Source: a virus. From it: 31,143 nt of DNA. Every line of letters begins with the position of its first letter. Within the stretch, counting starts at the first letter, position 1. A model generated the notes under the pieces. That model was not told the DNA's origin and made no database searches. It worked only from the letters and a program-made list of their open reading frames with translations. Position numbers and translations under genes: made by a program. Where the stretch lies: positions 1-31,143 of the IMG/VR virus record IMGVR_UViG_3300021511_000024. The stretch is one strand, 5' to 3'. Positions 6,756-27,896 of this stretch are shown here, one piece after another.

Positions 6756-7598
6756 CTACGTGCCGCAATATCCCAAGCACTCACCATGGCTCCAAAACTC
6801 TGCTTGGCTCGCGTCCTCATCAATGTTGGCCTCACCCAGCGGCACTCGGTCACGGTGCAAAAAGCACTCACCGCCGTTGTTGGCGGCAATCTGCTTGTCA
6901 ACATCAACAACATCATCCCACTCAACCGGGCTGGTGTCTCGTATGTACCGCCATTCCTTATTTGTGCGGAACGGACAACCAAGACAAGCAGATCGTGGGA
7001 TATGTTGAACGGGATAGTTTACCCGCAGCCACTCAATACACGCCTGCCTTGTCATACTGTGCGGCAACATCTGTTTGGGCAGCCCCACAAATGGATAAAC
7101 GTGAGACTTCCACGCCGCCACCGGCGATCGTACCCGCCGCAACTCATCTGATGTAATACCAAACCACATACGCACCGCCACGTCTTGCGGCCAGTGTTGC
7201 CGTGGCTTTAGCCCCAACATGCTTGATCTAATGTGCTTGTCAATCGGATCAATCTTGTATTCACGCGTACATTGCCGCCGAACCATCCCGCCCTTGTCAG
7301 TACCAGCATACAGCGGCAGTGTAACATACCGCTGGCCGTTGCTCCTGTTGCCACGCAGTACACCCTCAATAGCGTGTTGGCGAAGATCACCACCAGACAC
7401 AACGCGCAACGGGATGCCCGCTTTATTTGCCTTGTCCTGTAGCCACTTTAGATGCGTGTATACTTCTTCCGGCTCCCATTGCGTATCAGCAAAGATTGCC
7501 GCATCTAACTTCGGCAACTCCCCACGGCATGACATCAACAGCAATACTGTTGATTGCACACCAGCGCCAAGCGATAAGATATCCAGCGGTTTGCTCAT
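6756..7598 (-). CDS. PAPS-reductase-like PP-loop nucleotide-binding enzyme
   Basis: A 280-aa member of the phosphoadenosine phosphosulfate reductase/adenine nucleotide alpha-hydrolase superfamily. The N-terminal PP-loop is ILSLGAGVQSTVLLLM, followed by AAIFADTQWEPEEVY; RRQCTREYKIDPI and ACLGCPFRTNKEWR supply conserved Cys residues that may bind zinc or a cluster. Stand-alone versions are frequent in phages. Possible roles are sulfur assimilation during infection or chemistry on a nucleotide or nucleic acid base; no dnd partner genes are present. The start is ATG 7598 with a GGGG motif just upstream. Confidence 0.82.
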   Translation of the reverse strand: MSKPLDILSLGAGVQSTVLLLMSCRGELPKLDAAIFADTQWEPEEVYTHLKWLQDKANKAGIPLRVVSGGDLRQHAIEGVLRGNRSNGQRYVTLPLYAGTDKGGMVRRQCTREYKIDPIDKHIRSSMLGLKPRQHWPQDVAVRMWFGITSDELRRVRSPVAAWKSHVYPFVGLPKQMLPHSMTRQACIEWLRVNYPVQHIPRSACLGCPFRTNKEWRYIRDTSPVEWDDVVDVDKQIAANNGGECFLHRDRVPLGEANIDEDASQAEFWSHGECLGYCGT

Positions 7599-8289: not shown

Positions 8290-9192
8290 TTACATCGCCA
8301 TCAGCACGGCGATCATGTCATCCACGTCAACATTGCAATCAGTGTCAACATCTTCCGGTGTGTCCGCCTCACACTCACCCCACGGCGAGAGCAACACCTG
8401 CACGAAGTCCGCCACATCAACCACGCCATCGCGATTCACGTCGGCAGGTTTATCGTCGTACTCATAAGTAAGCCTCAATTCGATCTTACGCTCAAGACCG
8501 TCAACCACACACACGCCCTCATGCGAGACTGTGAGTTGCCACAGCGAGTAAGGTAGAACTCGGTGGGTGATCGTACCCGTCCCAACGAAGTCCGCGATTA
8601 CCGCAGGGTCAACTGTCTCTCGCTTGAATACTGTCGGGCCGATCGAGCCAAGATGCACGTCCACCCATGTCTCATCCTGCAAGATCGGCGGTGCAATCTC
8701 CTCAGCCTCAACATAAGCAGCTGCCGGTGCAGGCCAGTCGCCACTCACGATCTTGAAGTCGAAGAACACTCTACACTTGAACGGGCAGAGCCACATGTCC
8801 CACGGCTCAAGATACTCACACTCACCTGCATCGCTGCCTGTTGGTGTTGCCGTCCATCCACGCTCATCAGCCTCAATGGTGTTGATGCCAATGTGGAATG
8901 TGAATGTCATCTTGGACGGCGTGCCAAGTGCGGGATCGCTTTGGTCCCACTGGATGTTATACTCATCCCATGGGTATCCCCACACGCCAGGACCGGTTGC
9001 AATGTATATCTGTGTGACCTCGGTCTTGCTGCCCACCGTCATCATCGGTGGCGTTTGCTCAACCACTCTTGGAATGGGTGGCCCTGCGTCATAGATGGTG
9101 TTCTCAGTGTACTTTTTTGCATCCACAAAGTTCTCCACCAGTGGAGCATAGCCCACAAAGTACATCCCAATTGCGAAAAGAATCATTTTCAT
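8290..9192 (-). CDS. Secreted protein with C-terminal type I dockerin-like domain
   Basis: A 300-aa protein with an apparent signal peptide (MKMILFAIGMYFVGYA). The centre is beta-rich with a Cys cluster (ECEYLEPWDMWLCPFKC). The C-terminus (residues ~246-300) has two EF-hand-like calcium loops: DVNRDGVVDVAD (positions 251-262, Asp/Asn at 1, 3, 5 and 12) followed by FVQVLLSPWG, and DVDTDCNVDVDD (281-292) followed by MIAVLMAM. This is the dockerin repeat form that is abundant in secreted planctomycete proteins. It lies in an operon of small phage genes, starting 3 nt after the stop of 9196-9396. It could be a host-derived surface or adhesion protein; export by the host is predicted, not shown. 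Confidence 0.78.
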   Translation of the reverse strand: MKMILFAIGMYFVGYAPLVENFVDAKKYTENTIYDAGPPIPRVVEQTPPMMTVGSKTEVTQIYIATGPGVWGYPWDEYNIQWDQSDPALGTPSKMTFTFHIGINTIEADERGWTATPTGSDAGECEYLEPWDMWLCPFKCRVFFDFKIVSGDWPAPAAAYVEAEEIAPPILQDETWVDVHLGSIGPTVFKRETVDPAVIADFVGTGTITHRVLPYSLWQLTVSHEGVCVVDGLERKIELRLTYEYDDKPADVNRDGVVDVADFVQVLLSPWGECEADTPEDVDTDCNVDVDDMIAVLMAM

Positions 9193-11711: not shown

Positions 11712-11930
11712 TCATGTAACGCAGCACCGCGCGCATCCGTGCGCGGGAAGCAGTTCAGCCGGGGATGATCTGCCTTGGTGCTGCATAGGAGGTTGTAAGT
11801 ATAAACCGCCCAGCCTGGCCGCAACAAGCAGCCTGGATATTGGTGGGGCTGGGCGGAAAAGTGAGATACCGACTTGAACCACACACCGGCCAGCCGTGAT
11901 CTCGGTTAGTTGTTGTTGGGAGTCTGTCAT
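11712..11930 (-). CDS. Doubtful short ORF (72 aa) over a structured region
   Basis: ATG 11930 overlaps the stop of the replication gene (ATGA) and opens MTDSQQQLTEITAGRCVVQV, which looks protein-like. The remainder is Arg/Pro/Cys-rich and unconvincing, and it coincides with strong inverted repeats. It may be a short true peptide, or the region may act as RNA. Confidence 0.35.
   Translation of the reverse strand: MTDSQQQLTEITAGRCVVQVGISLFRPAPPISRLLVAARLGGLYLQPPMQHQGRSSPAELLPAHGCARCCVT
11728..11747. other. GC-rich hairpin
   Basis: The arms ccgcgc and gcgcgg surround a short loop. It lies just upstream of the hydrolase gene's ribosome-binding site. No T-run follows on the minus strand, so it does not look like a standard terminator; a transcript-stability or processing element is possible. 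Confidence 0.5.
11806..11856. other. Inverted repeat with 10-bp perfect arms
   Basis: The arms ccgcccagcc (11806-11815) and ggctgggcgg (11847-11856) are perfect complements separated by 31 nt that contain further partial copies (cagcctgg). On the minus strand the element is followed by TTTATA. It lies between the replication gene and the hydrolase gene and may form a structured RNA or an attenuator. Confidence 0.6.
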
Positions 11931-13009
11931 TGTGCCGGCACCACCCCATCCAGCCGATCCGCAATCAACGGCAGCACCATATTCCTCACCATCGTGTTGG
12001 CCAGCCCGCACCGCCCCATTGCCTGTCGTGCAACGCCGTTGGTGGCCAGCCCCACTGCCTGCTGCCTCAGCTCATCCTGCTCATCCTGGCTGAGCGAGTC
12101 GATGTACGCAGCCACACGTGCATCCTCAGCCGCTACAAGCCTCTCTGCCGCGTTTCTTTCTAAGATGGCTCTTGATACCCTTTCTGCCTCGACGGCCCTT
12201 AGACGGGCTTGTGTGGCCTTGTGGGCTATGGCAACCCGATTTGCCTCAACCGCTGCCTTGATGTTGTTGACCATCATGCCGATGCCCCCGCCCAGTTGTT
12301 GGGTGGTCGCCGCGGTGGAGGTGATGATGTCGGCGGTGATCCCCGGCATGGAGGCCAGATCCGTTCTGGTAGGTTCCCCGATCCCCGTTCCCATCAGCGC
12401 AGCGATCACATCAGCAGCCGGCGTAGCCGCCTCGGCGCAGCCGGCAGAGGCTGCCGCCACGCGCGCGTCTTTGGGACCGGAATCAATCTGCCGTCGCTGA
12501 TGATGGTTCCTCTTATGGTTCTCTTTTGGTTCCTGAGCAACAGCTGTTGCACAATCAACGGTCACAGGTTGCTCAATCAACGACCGTGAGTTGCTCAAAC
12601 AACGCCCCGATGATTGAGTAACAACTGTTGCACAATCAATACCATGTGGGGGCGCTGTTGTTTGAGTAGCCCGGGTTGCACAATCAACAACAGTGTCCTC
12701 GACACATGGGAAGCGATAAATTGTGATTGCACTTTGTACCCTGCCACCCCCCATCCGTCCCCGCTTACACTGGATCATCCCAGCCGCCTCAAGGTCTTTG
12801 ATGCTCCCCCACACGGTACGCCTGCTCCGCCCGATCATCTTGGCGATGGTGTCTTGTGAGGGCCAAGCCAGCCCCGTCTTGCGGTTGCGGTGAGCCAGCA
12901 AGACCAGCAGTGTTGCCCGTCTTGACTCCCCCATCTGCCAGAACTGCGGATCAAGCAGAAGTGAGTTCGGCACGTATGTGCTGCCGGTGTCCACCCTGTT
13001 TGTTGCCAT
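11927..13009 (-). CDS. Winged-helix replication initiation protein (lambda O-like role)
   Basis: A 360-aa protein from ATG 13009 (MATNRVDTG); ATG 13018 lacks room for a ribosome-binding site. The N-terminal domain (residues ~25-100) has a winged helix: RATLLVLLAHRNRKTGLAWPSQ, DTIAKMIGRSRRTVWGSIKD, then LEAAGMIQCKRGRMGGGRV. The middle is low in complexity and encodes the DNA repeats at 12537-12688. The C-terminal half is Ala-rich and helical (coiled-coil-like, 200-320). This matches initiators that bind iterons inside their own gene and recruit the host helicase. It lies in the early operon after the SSB and exonuclease genes. Role assigned by domain and repeats, not by a named family hit. Confidence 0.7.
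   Translation of the reverse strand: MATNRVDTGSTYVPNSLLLDPQFWQMGESRRATLLVLLAHRNRKTGLAWPSQDTIAKMIGRSRRTVWGSIKDLEAAGMIQCKRGRMGGGRVQSAITIYRFPCVEDTVVDCATRATQTTAPPHGIDCATVVTQSSGRCLSNSRSLIEQPVTVDCATAVAQEPKENHKRNHHQRRQIDSGPKDARVAAASAGCAEAATPAADVIAALMGTGIGEPTRTDLASMPGITADIITSTAATTQQLGGGIGMMVNNIKAAVEANRVAIAHKATQARLRAVEAERVSRAILERNAAERLVAAEDARVAAYIDSLSQDEQDELRQQAVGLATNGVARQAMGRCGLANTMVRNMVLPLIADRLDGVVPAQ
12478..12536 (-). other. Strand-asymmetric tract beside the iterons (possible DNA-unwinding element)
   Basis: The plus strand is T/C-rich with a ~12-bp imperfect repeat (tggttcctctta, tggttctctttt, ggttcctgag), so the minus strand is purine-rich. It abuts the iteron array and corresponds to the charged QEPKENHKRNHHQRRQ part of the protein. 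Lambda ori has a similar asymmetric AT-rich stretch next to its iterons. Confidence 0.45.
12534..12688. repeat. Iteron array, putative replication origin inside the initiator gene
   Basis: Five direct copies of a 14-bp motif gttgcwcaatcaac occur at 12546-12559, 12568-12581, 12590-12603 (one base off), 12627-12640 and 12675-12688. The first three are spaced exactly 22 bp apart. Partial inverted copies lie at 12534-12544, 12612-12625 and 12656-12669. Copies 1, 4 and 5 encode [V/I]DCAT in frame, but copies 2 and 3 fall in other reading frames, so conservation is at the DNA level. This resembles origins located in initiator genes of lambdoid phages. Confidence 0.7.
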
Positions 13010-13027
13010 GCCATCCACCAGATAACC

Positions 13028-13117: not shown

Positions 13118-13168
13118 ATCGTGGTCCAGAGTTGCCACTCTACCTTATCGGCAATCGGCGTCAAGTCA

Positions 13169-13991: not shown

Positions 13992-14924
13992 TTAGAAACT
14001 GACAGGCTTGCCGCCCATCGTGATTGACTCGTCATCGTAAACACAATCCGGCATGGTGAATGCCGTGGGGTTGGCTGGCCCCGGCCACTTGTCGGTATCG
14101 CGTGCAACCACGTATTGAGCCAGCACCTTGCGGTACAGCTCACGGCCAGCTTGTAACGCCCGTTCATGCAGCGGCGCTGCCAGCGTGATGTAAGGCGATG
14201 TGCTGCCGAGGACCACCATGATCCACTCCCATTGCAGGCCCCCAGTGTTGGCTGCCATGCCGTCCGTGTAAATGGCACCTTGCATATCATAACAGTATTT
14301 ATGTATTGAGTGTGAGAAAGCCAGCGGGTCTGCATCAGTTTTCACATCAATCAACCTGCACGTACTGTTGCGCACCAAGTCAACCCGCGCCTTCATCCGC
14401 ACACCGCTTGCTGCATCATCCCACACAAGACACGTTTCGGGATGGCCGCCACTTCTCAGATATTGAACCGCAATAGAATTGTCCCGCAATGATCGCAGCA
14501 TTGCCTGCATCCGATCGAAGTCAGCCTGGCTCACCACTTCCCGATCACCGTTGACCGTGGCAAACTCATTGGCCCTTGCCCTGTAGTATGTGGTGTTCTT
14601 GCTGTTGGTTGGCTTGCCTGCTTGTGTCACGTTGTCGGCATCACCCTCAAACGCCGGCATGACAACGTACCGAGCTGCAATCTGTAGAGTCTCCAGCGAT
14701 GCTGTGTGCAGGAAAGATCCGAACTGCATTGCCTTGGTGGGTGGGGTGGATATACCCGCATGCTCATCAATCGCAGCCTTAAGGTGAGCCATGCTGACTT
14801 TGCGGTCACGCACAACAGCACGCTTGAGCAGGCTGTTGTTCATGTACGGCCAGGTGCGGTACTCGCTGAACGGGACATCATGGTAGATGCCGGGTGGTGG
14901 TGCGGTTGTTGGTTGATCACTCAT
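13992..14924 (-). CDS. PDDEXK exonuclease (RecE/exodeoxyribonuclease VIII type, DUF3799)
   Basis: A 310-aa nuclease. GIYHDVPFSEYRTWPYMNNS is the typical N-terminal segment; GSFLHTASLE (His73) lies in the first helix; MKARVDLVRN and RLIDVKTDADP give the Asp182...Asp193-x-Lys195 catalytic core; YDMQGAIYTDGM gives the QxxxY motif. It would degrade 5' ends of double-stranded DNA to prepare single strands for recombination. The gene overlaps the DnaA-like gene (ATGA) and precedes the SSB-like gene. No separate RecT-like annealase was seen. Confidence 0.88.
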   Translation of the reverse strand: MSDQPTTAPPPGIYHDVPFSEYRTWPYMNNSLLKRAVVRDRKVSMAHLKAAIDEHAGISTPPTKAMQFGSFLHTASLETLQIAARYVVMPAFEGDADNVTQAGKPTNSKNTTYYRARANEFATVNGDREVVSQADFDRMQAMLRSLRDNSIAVQYLRSGGHPETCLVWDDAASGVRMKARVDLVRNSTCRLIDVKTDADPLAFSHSIHKYCYDMQGAIYTDGMAANTGGLQWEWIMVVLGSTSPYITLAAPLHERALQAGRELYRKVLAQYVVARDTDKWPGPANPTAFTMPDCVYDDESITMGGKPVSF

Positions 14925-15253
14925 GGATTGATCCTCCTGAACTCGCCGTACACTGCCAGAAAGTCCTGCTGATAATCAACCCGCCTGGCCTGCTCATCGT
15001 CGTAATAACCTTCAAGCATCCCATACACAGTGCTCCCCGCACGGCCAAGCGGCTTGCCGATCTCGGCCATGCTCATGTTGAGGCTGCGCTTCATTATGAC
15101 CGCAGCCAATCGGCGTGCCTTCACCAAAAATCTGGTACGCAGCGGACCTCGCAACGCTCCCTTGTTCAGCCCGTACAGTGCGGTCACTGCCCGTACCACA
15201 TCATCAGCCGATCTGATCTCGGCCACTTGCATTGCTGGTTTCTTTGCGGACAT
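14921..15253 (-). CDS. Stand-alone DnaA domain IV-like DNA-binding protein
   Basis: A 110-aa protein whose residues ~33-85 (FLVKARRLAAVIMKRSLNMS, then MAEIGKPLGRAGSTVYGMLE) match the DnaA C-terminal helix-turn-helix, including the aR..A..l.r...s..EIG...gR..sTV pattern. There is no ATPase domain. Such short proteins could bind DnaA boxes, redirect host DnaA or act as a regulator. The start shares its A with the previous stop (TAATG). Within the early operon, it suggests control of replication initiation. Confidence 0.75.
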   Translation of the reverse strand: MSAKKPAMQVAEIRSADDVVRAVTALYGLNKGALRGPLRTRFLVKARRLAAVIMKRSLNMSMAEIGKPLGRAGSTVYGMLEGYYDDEQARRVDYQQDFLAVYGEFRRINP

Positions 15254-24982: not shown

Positions 24983-25486
24983 TTATCTGTCCGTGTCCCC
25001 GCGCTGGCCGAATATCGGCCAGATGTCTGAACCCTGCAAATCTGTGCCATCCACCTTCTGCCACAAGAGACCGATGAACTTCTCTTGCTCCTGATGCCTC
25101 AGGCTGTTGACCGCACTCATCCCCTGAAACTGAGTCTCTACTTCCTTCAACCCCTGAGCAAGTGACTCGATTATCTTGGAATCAACCCTTGTGCGAACAT
25201 CATCTTCCTCAATCCAATGCTTTACCTCTGCAATGTTTGTCGCAAGTGGGTTCAACGCCATTGCTCCCACAATACTGATGATCGTCACCGTGCCCATCAG
25301 GGCAAACATCAACACACTGATCAGGGCAATTGTGGTCTTGCCGTCGAGCTTGCCCGTGACGGCTTGCTGGGTCGCAAGCCCACCAATCGCGTCCTTGATA
25401 TCCTTTACGTCCTGTCTGATCTCCTTGCGAAAGGTCACAAACTCAGACAATGGGGTGTACTCGGTATCGTGCTGCGTATCAGCCAT
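24983..25486 (-). CDS. Membrane-anchored coiled-coil protein (167 aa)
   Basis: N-terminal coiled-coil (SEFVTFRKEIRQDVKDIKDA), one strong transmembrane helix (residues ~52-80, TIALISVLMFALMGTVTIIS), then a second helical region (KIIESLAQGLKEVETQFQGM). Its start overlaps the end of 25479-26114. The architecture resembles small phage membrane proteins such as holin-accessory or exclusion factors. The position among head genes is unusual. No family was assigned. Confidence 0.6.
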   Translation of the reverse strand: MADTQHDTEYTPLSEFVTFRKEIRQDVKDIKDAIGGLATQQAVTGKLDGKTTIALISVLMFALMGTVTIISIVGAMALNPLATNIAEVKHWIEEDDVRTRVDSKIIESLAQGLKEVETQFQGMSAVNSLRHQEQEKFIGLLWQKVDGTDLQGSDIWPIFGQRGDTDR

Positions 25487-26114
25487 CTACTTTGCTCCCC
25501 GCAGTTACGGCATCATCAACCACATGTATAAACTCGGTCGGTATCGCCATGATGGTCCCAACCACTGCACCCAGTACATGCTGGGCGATGTGTTCATGTC
25601 GCTGCACCTGATATCCGTACAAGTCGGGCTGCCACGGGTACGGCTTGGCCACATCACTTGCCGGGTCGATCTCAACTTTGATACCCCGGCCAATGGCAAG
25701 CCCGATCCAATAATCAAGGCACGGCTTCTGCGCCATGTAATCAGCCGATGCAGGCAGACGGTACATGCCGTACAGGTTGATCCGTTCATAACCTTGCAGG
25801 ATGGCATGTGCAATCATGTACGCAATCGAGCTGGTGAAGTACGGTCGTCCGCTCAGCATGATTGCATCTTGTAGCGGGTATCTGTCCTGCCTCTCAATGC
25901 CGGGGAACTCGGCCCGTGCCACCACCGGCCCGCCCCACTTGTTCACGATCTCTGCGAAGTTCGGCGGGTAATACTTGTGGTGGTCCATCAGATACAGCCG
26001 TGTCAGTTGCCCGTACTTCAGCACGGCAGTATTGCATCCCCACACCTCTGCACCCCTGCTGCACTTGAACTGCCTGGTGCCGAGCTGCCCGACGATGTGT
26101 ACCATCTTGCTCAT
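25479..26114 (-). CDS. Rossmann-like protein C of a tandem trio (211 aa)
   Basis: The start chosen is ATG 26114 (MSKMVHIVGQLGTRQFKC), overlapping the upstream stop as ATGA. It shows MVHIVGQLGTRQF, EVWGCNTAVLKYGQLTRLYL and MDHHKYYPP, the same order as its two neighbours (nucleotide-like loop, then a small core, then a DxxxYF-like site), but less conserved. It continues with GYERINLYGMYRLP. Possible roles are sugar-nucleotide transfer or modification of the virion or host surface; none is established. Confidence 0.5.
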   Translation of the reverse strand: MSKMVHIVGQLGTRQFKCSRGAEVWGCNTAVLKYGQLTRLYLMDHHKYYPPNFAEIVNKWGGPVVARAEFPGIERQDRYPLQDAIMLSGRPYFTSSIAYMIAHAILQGYERINLYGMYRLPASADYMAQKPCLDYWIGLAIGRGIKVEIDPASDVAKPYPWQPDLYGYQVQRHEHIAQHVLGAVVGTIMAIPTEFIHVVDDAVTAGSKVDG

Positions 26115-26668
26115 ACTTCCAGCCTTTCTACTTGCTTGGCTTCTGGCATCCACTCGCAGAAGGTTGACAGCGGCGAAGCGTTAACCCACTCCTGCCCAGC
26201 CTCTACAGCCAACGGCCACCACTCACGCATCACGTTGTTGATCGGTCTTAGTTCATTCTCCAGCAGGTCACACCCAACAAAGATCAGCCGTTCATAGCCC
26301 AGCCTCGCAGCGAGTTGCACGGCGAAGAACAGACTGTAATTGCGGGGCAGTGGTCCACCGACAATCGGACCATCCGGCCCGAACTGCACGTCCCTCGAGT
26401 CGATGTATTCCCATGCCCGCACGCGAGGATACTTGCTCCACCGCTTGGCAAACTTGTTGCCCGCGATATGCTTGGTGAAGTTCTCGGATGATTGCAGCCA
26501 CTCAGGGAAACAGACAGGCCGATCCAGCGTGCAGAAGTGTGTGATGTCAGGTGCGAACTTGTAACCACCACTCACCGCCATGATCGGCACATCCATAGCA
26601 TCCCAATCGTACAACTCAGCACTTGGCCCCTGCCCCAGCAAGATGATGCTGTCACTGGCGGTACTCAT
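26111..26668 (-). CDS. GxGPS Rossmann-like protein B of a tandem trio (185 aa)
   Basis: It begins with SIILLGQGPSAELYDWDAMD, then VPIMAVSGGYKFAPDITHFC, TLDRPVCFPEW and, near the end, GYERLIFVGCDLLENELRP. The order and motifs match 26665-27384 closely, so these are tandem paralogues. The GxGPS loop resembles the DUF115/6-hydroxymethylpterin-like or glycosyltransferase-like folds found in phages. ATGA overlaps couple it on both sides. The substrate is unknown. Confidence 0.6.
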   Translation of the reverse strand: MSTASDSIILLGQGPSAELYDWDAMDVPIMAVSGGYKFAPDITHFCTLDRPVCFPEWLQSSENFTKHIAGNKFAKRWSKYPRVRAWEYIDSRDVQFGPDGPIVGGPLPRNYSLFFAVQLAARLGYERLIFVGCDLLENELRPINNVMREWWPLAVEAGQEWVNASPLSTFCEWMPEAKQVERLEV

Positions 26669-27384
26669 ACTGCCACCCCCTCAGCCATAAACTCGGCAAG
26701 TGGCGAACCCGGCGTATCACACACCCACTCAATGCCGTGCTTCTGTGCAGCCGGATACCATTGCTTTAGTGTGGGTGTCACCAACTCATATACGGCATGT
26801 GTCAGATCGCAACCAACAAAGATCAACCGGCGGAACCCCATCCACGCCGCAACCTGCACAGCAAAGATCATGCTGCTGCTGCACGCATGCAGTCCTGTCA
26901 TTGCGTCTTGTTCGTTAGGATCGAAGCACAGCCCGGTTGCCGGGTTCATCGGGTACGCATGGACATCGGTATAGTCTGCCCAGCCCGGCTGCCAGCCCAG
27001 CGCGTGCGGGTACTTCTCAAACCCAGCCATCACCTTATCGCCAACGCCCCCATGCACGGCGTTGATTCGTTCTTGCAGGTCAACCGCAATCGTCCGCTCA
27101 TGCCCGGGCTTGTGCCGAGACAGCGGCACATGCTTCATCACGTCGCCATCATGTAAGAAGTCCCACCACCTGCAATGCACCGAGTTTGGCCACGAGTGGT
27201 CACGGTCTGCAATGTGCCGGTCATCAAAGTATTTAACTGCATCTAATGTGCAGAAGTGTTGTGGCTTGACCTGCAACGCAAAGACCGCCGAACTCACCGC
27301 CATGATGGTGATTGCCGGATCAAACTCATAACTGGCCAGCGATGGTCCCCGGCCAACTATGTAAATGGAGTCTGACTCTTGCAT
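26665..27384 (-). CDS. GxGPS Rossmann-like protein A of a tandem trio (239 aa)
   Basis: The start chosen is ATG 27384 (MQESDSIYIVGRGPSLASYE); an in-frame extension to 27639 would overlap the decoration gene. It shows IYIVGRGPS, TIMAVSSAVFALQVKPQHFC, TLDAVKYF and GFRRLIFVGCDLTHAV, the same series as 26111-26668. An RNA hairpin lies just in front of its start. It may be a sugar- or nucleotide-dependent transferase; location between the capsid and connector genes suggests virion-related modification. Confidence 0.6.
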   Translation of the reverse strand: MQESDSIYIVGRGPSLASYEFDPAITIMAVSSAVFALQVKPQHFCTLDAVKYFDDRHIADRDHSWPNSVHCRWWDFLHDGDVMKHVPLSRHKPGHERTIAVDLQERINAVHGGVGDKVMAGFEKYPHALGWQPGWADYTDVHAYPMNPATGLCFDPNEQDAMTGLHACSSSMIFAVQVAAWMGFRRLIFVGCDLTHAVYELVTPTLKQWYPAAQKHGIEWVCDTPGSPLAEFMAEGVAV

Positions 27385-27389
27385 AAACC

Positions 27390-27416
27390 GTGCTGGGAAG
27401 CATTGCCCCCCAGCAC
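27390..27416 (-). promoter_or_regulatory. Hairpin upstream of the GxGPS trio
   Basis: The arms gtgctggg (27390-27397) and cccagcac (27409-27416) form a perfect 8-bp stem with an 11-nt loop. On the minus strand the stem ends 5 nt before the ATG at 27384, covering its ribosome-binding region. There is no T-run. It may limit translation or read-through after the highly expressed capsid genes. Confidence 0.5.
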
Positions 27417-27449
27417 AGCGAAAGGGGGGAGGAAACGAATAATCGTCTG

Positions 27450-27896
27450 CTACGTTGCGGCAGCCCCTGCTCCTGCCGTCAACGCTGTCTTGCCGTAACG
27501 AGGTGAGCTGAGTATGTAGACCACCTGCCACTCGTCCGTGGCGGCTGCGGTCTTGACTACAGCCGAGATATATCGCACGCCCGAAGTAGTGCTGTCCTGG
27601 CCAGCCAGGTCGTCCGATGTAACTTCCAGCATTGCCCAATCACCCGTCGCATCAGGATCGGTGCTGCCGGTGCGAGTTTTCAGCGTTGCCGCCGAAGTGC
27701 CCGCCAGTGCGGCCGATCCATCAATGCGGAAGATTTGAGTGTTATCTGATCCAACCGACTTGATGAGCAACACCATACAACGGTGATACTCGCTCATGTC
27801 AACCCAGGTGGTGCTGGAAACATTAGCCGATGTAGTGGCGTTGGGGTCATGGTCGGCCACCACAATCTTAACTTCTTCGCTGAGTTTGAGACTCAT
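27450..27896 (-). CDS. Capsid decoration-like protein (148 aa)
   Basis: A beta-rich, Ala/Thr/Ser-rich protein: VKIVVADHDPNATTSANVSS, STTWVDMSEYHRCMVLLIKS and GVRYISAVVKTAAATDEWQV. It directly follows the major capsid gene (5 nt gap), the usual site of decoration or head-fibre proteins. It ends with an AGAGAAAT tail. The assignment is from position and beta pattern. Confidence 0.6.
   Translation of the reverse strand: MSLKLSEEVKIVVADHDPNATTSANVSSTTWVDMSEYHRCMVLLIKSVGSDNTQIFRIDGSAALAGTSAATLKTRTGSTDPDATGDWAMLEVTSDDLAGQDSTTSGVRYISAVVKTAAATDEWQVVYILSSPRYGKTALTAGAGAAAT

Follow-up and report, generated by a model that had tools for sequence, protein, structure and literature searches.

The winged-helix gene and its repeats

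The window, by which the whole analysed stretch of DNA is meant, is a 31,143-base viral record that was classed as linear and is possibly a fragment. A gene located at 11927-13018 (Table 1) encodes a protein matching HTH_36 (E 1.5e-9, residues 34-80) and HTH_Crp_2 (residues 34-88), and its best PHROGs matches are to replication initiation or O-like proteins (E 3.5e-10 to 1e-9). By these Pfam and PHROGs matches the product belongs to the winged-helix, O-like type of initiator that is characteristic of lambda-O-type origins. No plasmid Rep-type initiator family, as expected for an iteron plasmid origin, was among the Pfam and PHROGs matches. A sequence search of solved structures yielded nothing useful. 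A single-sequence structure model of low confidence (mean pLDDT 47) was used solely to note that the stretch encoded by the repeats described below is predicted to be an unstructured linker.

Directly after the part encoding the winged helix, at codons 111-164 and approximately 330 bp inside the gene, away from the promoter, there are eight 14-bp sites, of which five are direct copies of GTTGCWCAATCAAC and the other three are inverted and degenerate. Thus, as in lambda-O-type origins, multiple iterons lie within the initiator gene behind the DNA-binding domain. The first-pass annotation had described five direct repeats, three of them spaced by exactly 22 bp, and three partial inverted copies, all inside a winged-helix gene for a putative initiator. 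All these elements were recovered, the exact 22 bp spacing being that of the copies at 12546, 12568 and 12590. Of the interval it had assigned to the array (12534-12688), the end coincides with the last copy, but the start falls 6 bases inside the outermost one. The inverted and direct partners are 18 bp apart in all three pairs (12528/12546, 12609/12627 and 12657/12675), and the array consists of these three inverted pairs and two single direct copies. In a lambda-O-type origin each iteron is expected to have dyad symmetry and to bind a dimer; here the dyad, GTTG-N6-CAAC, is weak (90 of 2000 permutations were as good).

The array is adjoined by an A-rich 11-bp tandem repeat, which was absent from the first-pass annotation. 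At the junction of the two, the lowest-GC 45-bp stretch of the initiator gene begins 1 base past the last direct copy and has a GC content of 42% compared to 59% for the gene. The array thus has an A+T-rich strip beside it, as lambda-O-type origins do, although this strip is the minimum within its gene only, and stretches of lower stability occur elsewhere in the contig.

Table 1. Coordinates of the initiator gene and of the repeats embedded in it
Feature	Position	Strand	Remarks
Winged-helix replication initiator gene	11927-13018	-	363 aa, GTG start; HTH_36 and PHROGs matches
Part encoding the winged-helix domain	12728-12934	-	About residues 29-97; HTH_36 34-80, HTH_Crp_2 34-88
11-bp tandem repeat, putative unwinding element	12503-12534		A-rich on coding strand; 2.8 copies; TRF score 50
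Iteron array, putative origin with putative initiator-binding sites	12528-12688		Repeat scans and codon shuffles
Degenerate inverted copy GTTGCTCAGGAACC	12528-12541	-	4 mismatches; partner 12546
Iteron GTTGCACAATCAAC	12546-12559	+	0 mismatches
Iteron GTTGCTCAATCAAC	12568-12581	+	0 mismatches; 22 bp from previous copy
Iteron GTTGCTCAAACAAC	12590-12603	+	1 mismatch; 22 bp from previous copy
Inverted copy GTTACTCAATCATC	12609-12622	-	2 mismatches; partner 12627
Iteron GTTGCACAATCAAT	12627-12640	+	1 mismatch
Inverted copy GCTACTCAAACAAC	12657-12670	-	3 mismatches; partner 12675
Iteron GTTGCACAATCAAC	12675-12688	+	0 mismatches

Other origin signals were sought in the window. GC skew, a check named in the first-pass annotation, is negative throughout, tracks gene orientation and shows no turn at the array. 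DnaA boxes are not enriched in the window, their number being lower than expected by chance, although a gene near that of the initiator (14921-15253, minus strand) encodes a 110-aa protein whose sole match is the DnaA DNA-binding domain (Bac_DnaA_C, E 4.8e-10).

Some further minus-strand genes of the window deserve mention. The gene at 6756-7598 resembles phosphoadenosine phosphosulfate reductase auxiliary genes (PHROGs, E 6.8e-36). Beside 25479-26153, the products of 26111-26668 and 26665-27639 share GxGPS-like starts, and the latter has a sub-threshold MptE-like match. The product of 8290-9192, for which no Pfam match was obtained, ends with two Asp-rich repeats, DVNRDGVVDVADF and DTDCNVDVDDMIAV, which by eye look dockerin-like and presumably hint at a planctomycete host.

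The repeats as DNA sequence and their relatives

At three or fewer mismatches to the motif the whole window contains 21 sites, whereas shuffled sequences averaged 6.7 and never exceeded 14. When the protein was held fixed in 200 synonymous shuffles, the maxima were 3, 4 and 6 sites at up to one, two and three mismatches, respectively, as opposed to the 5, 6 and 8 sites actually present. A motif-free test gave 7 clustered 12-mers, whereas 500 synonymous shuffles reached 6 at most; the 13 other window genes examined in this way all stayed within the range of their own synonymous shuffles. The copies at 12546, 12627 and 12675 share one codon phase and those at 12568 and 12590 occupy the others, as had been noted on first reading. 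Because synonymous shuffling never reached the array and the copies are distributed over all three reading frames, the repeat is maintained as DNA, beyond any peptide constraint, which bears out the original claim.

No array of GTTGCWCAATCAAC was found elsewhere in IMG/VR. Five loci considered as possible array copies had two copies each, a chance level; four of them represent a single long structural gene and the fifth lies in another, unrelated gene. Close relatives of the initiator protein were not detected by tblastn or pattern searches of phages and of viral and genome contigs, and no close relative carrying this array came up in the collections searched. The exonuclease neighbour, used as query, retrieved no viral locus, and the terminase relatives in viral contigs were without an HTH_36 gene. 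Two prophage-like loci, each with a distantly similar winged-helix gene, were reached through terminase relatives. In one of them (L051, Rubellimicrobium) the winged-helix domain is followed by a strong array of CCCGGAA repeats; the other (L048, Methylorubrum) contains two copies of a 22-bp repeat, which are not significant by shuffling. The reading frame of the L051 gene (4463-5514) stops soon after the array and seems to resume in another frame past a C-rich run, a possible frameshift. The suggestion that the repeat sequence is specific to this phage agrees with these results: no such array occurred elsewhere in the searches, and distant relatives carry other arrays in the same place.

A survey was made of distantly related winged-helix genes, phrog_270-like and window-like, mostly from Planctomycetota genomes; one locus (L120) was left out, the wrong ORF having been picked. 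Twelve of the 33 genes beat all 40 of their synonymous shuffles, compared to one of 45 control ORFs with 20 shuffles, but the former is a rough figure, as two of the twelve (L129 and L144) appear to be weak cases and host regulators may be present among the weak family matches. In ten arrays that were inspected closely the copies follow the winged helix, and each element has its own repeat sequence. The usual copy spacing is about 22 bp in most of them, but 14 bp in L051, 17 bp (alternating) in L123 and 21 bp in L114. The arrays of L124, L126, L137 and L051 occupy all three frames; that of L114 is less clear, its copies largely encoding the same peptide. Six of the ten share with lambda and the window a 45-bp stretch, among the lowest in GC of its gene, at most about 110 bp beyond the array. 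The phrog_270-like Planctomycetota arrays (L114, L123, L124, L126, L128, L133, L134 and L137) resemble that of the window in their position just after the winged helix, in the spacing prevalent among them and, in several, in rotation through the reading frames; L123 also shares the mixed orientations. They differ from it in repeat sequence.

Comparison with known origins and alternative explanations

The layout was said at first reading to parallel lambda ori inside gene O, and the annotated lambda record supports this. The lambda iterons are at codons 117-144 of 299 (codons 111-164 of 363 in the window) and the lowest-GC strip of the gene comes immediately behind them, so the order of winged helix, iterons and lowest-GC strip is the same, and in both cases the repeats fall in several reading frames. 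Lambda ori, however, comprises four copies of 18 bp, all oriented alike and with a clear dyad inside the repeat, whereas the window has eight 14-bp sites of unrelated sequence with three inverted pairs and a weaker dyad; lambda also has gene P, for which no equivalent was recognised among the window genes scanned. The O-like genes of lambda, P22 and phage L carry different repeats (PMC8022706). The gene 18 origins of P22 and phage L are similar to the window array in having phage-specific repeats in the coding region of an O-like gene, but the repeat sequences are different, that of phage L being six 11-bp copies of TGTCCAACGGA (PMC8022706). Iteron plasmids such as RK2, P1 and F likewise have initiator-specific repeats beside an A+T-rich strip, but these are mostly direct repeats bound by monomers (PMC5043065).

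Could the repeats simply mirror a linker peptide of low complexity and repetitive sequence (VDCATxxTQ), without any function as DNA? The three copies sharing a codon phase all encode DCAT, and the linker is predicted to be disordered. The copies at 12568 and 12590, however, encode different peptides and the inverted copies unrelated ones, which, together with the shuffling results (see above), refutes this explanation; we consider it very improbable. If the array acts as DNA, it could still be a site of another kind. Packaging sites lie within coding genes in some phages, but the initiator gene is the wrong gene for pac, TerL is about 9 kb from the array, and the layout matches the initiator-gene arrays of unrelated elements, so that a packaging or recombination site appears the least probable of all.

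More weight, though still little, can be given to the possibility that the same winged-helix protein uses these sites for regulation or partition, as an autorepression roadblock or a centromere, and that replication starts elsewhere. A protein with a winged-helix fold could act as a repressor by binding sites of its own, and partition sites too can mix direct and inverted copies. Repression is difficult to reconcile with the position of the array inside the gene; the single promoter-like match near it (13137-13164) is at chance level. Partition is disfavoured by the lack of a ParA-like match among the window genes scanned. Taking into account that the protein matches initiator families and that, as in lambda, the low-GC strip borders the array, we regard this explanation as improbable.

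A putative origin of the lambda type

Very probably the array is the replication origin of the phage, of the lambda ori type, and is bound by the protein encoded around it. In lambda, dimers of O bind the iterons of ori and, under negative supercoiling, open the A+T-rich region of 40 bp next to them (PMC5043065). By analogy, the winged-helix N-terminal domain of the initiator, probably dimeric, would bind the eight iterons and wrap or bend the DNA. The resulting strain would open the adjacent A-rich tandem-repeat strip (about 12495-12545), and the C-terminal helical part of the initiator, or another partner, would then recruit the host helicase. Helicase loading is the weakest step of this proposed mechanism, because the ORFs scanned, a subset of those in a linear and possibly fragmentary contig, included none recognisable as encoding a helicase or helicase loader.

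The mixed architecture, with three inverted pairs, two phased direct copies and the 11-bp tandem repeat, might represent an origin subtype of its own, with paired and single sites serving different functions such as opening and copy control, but we think this unlikely. The array fits the known class of iterons inside O-like genes, and its differences from lambda are matters of detail.

The analysis places a probable origin of replication in an uncultured phage for which the collections searched contained no close relative. The survey also suggests that genes for winged-helix initiators of this class commonly contain embedded arrays, each element having its own repeat sequence, and such arrays could help to identify origins, and initiators together with their iterons, directly from sequence.
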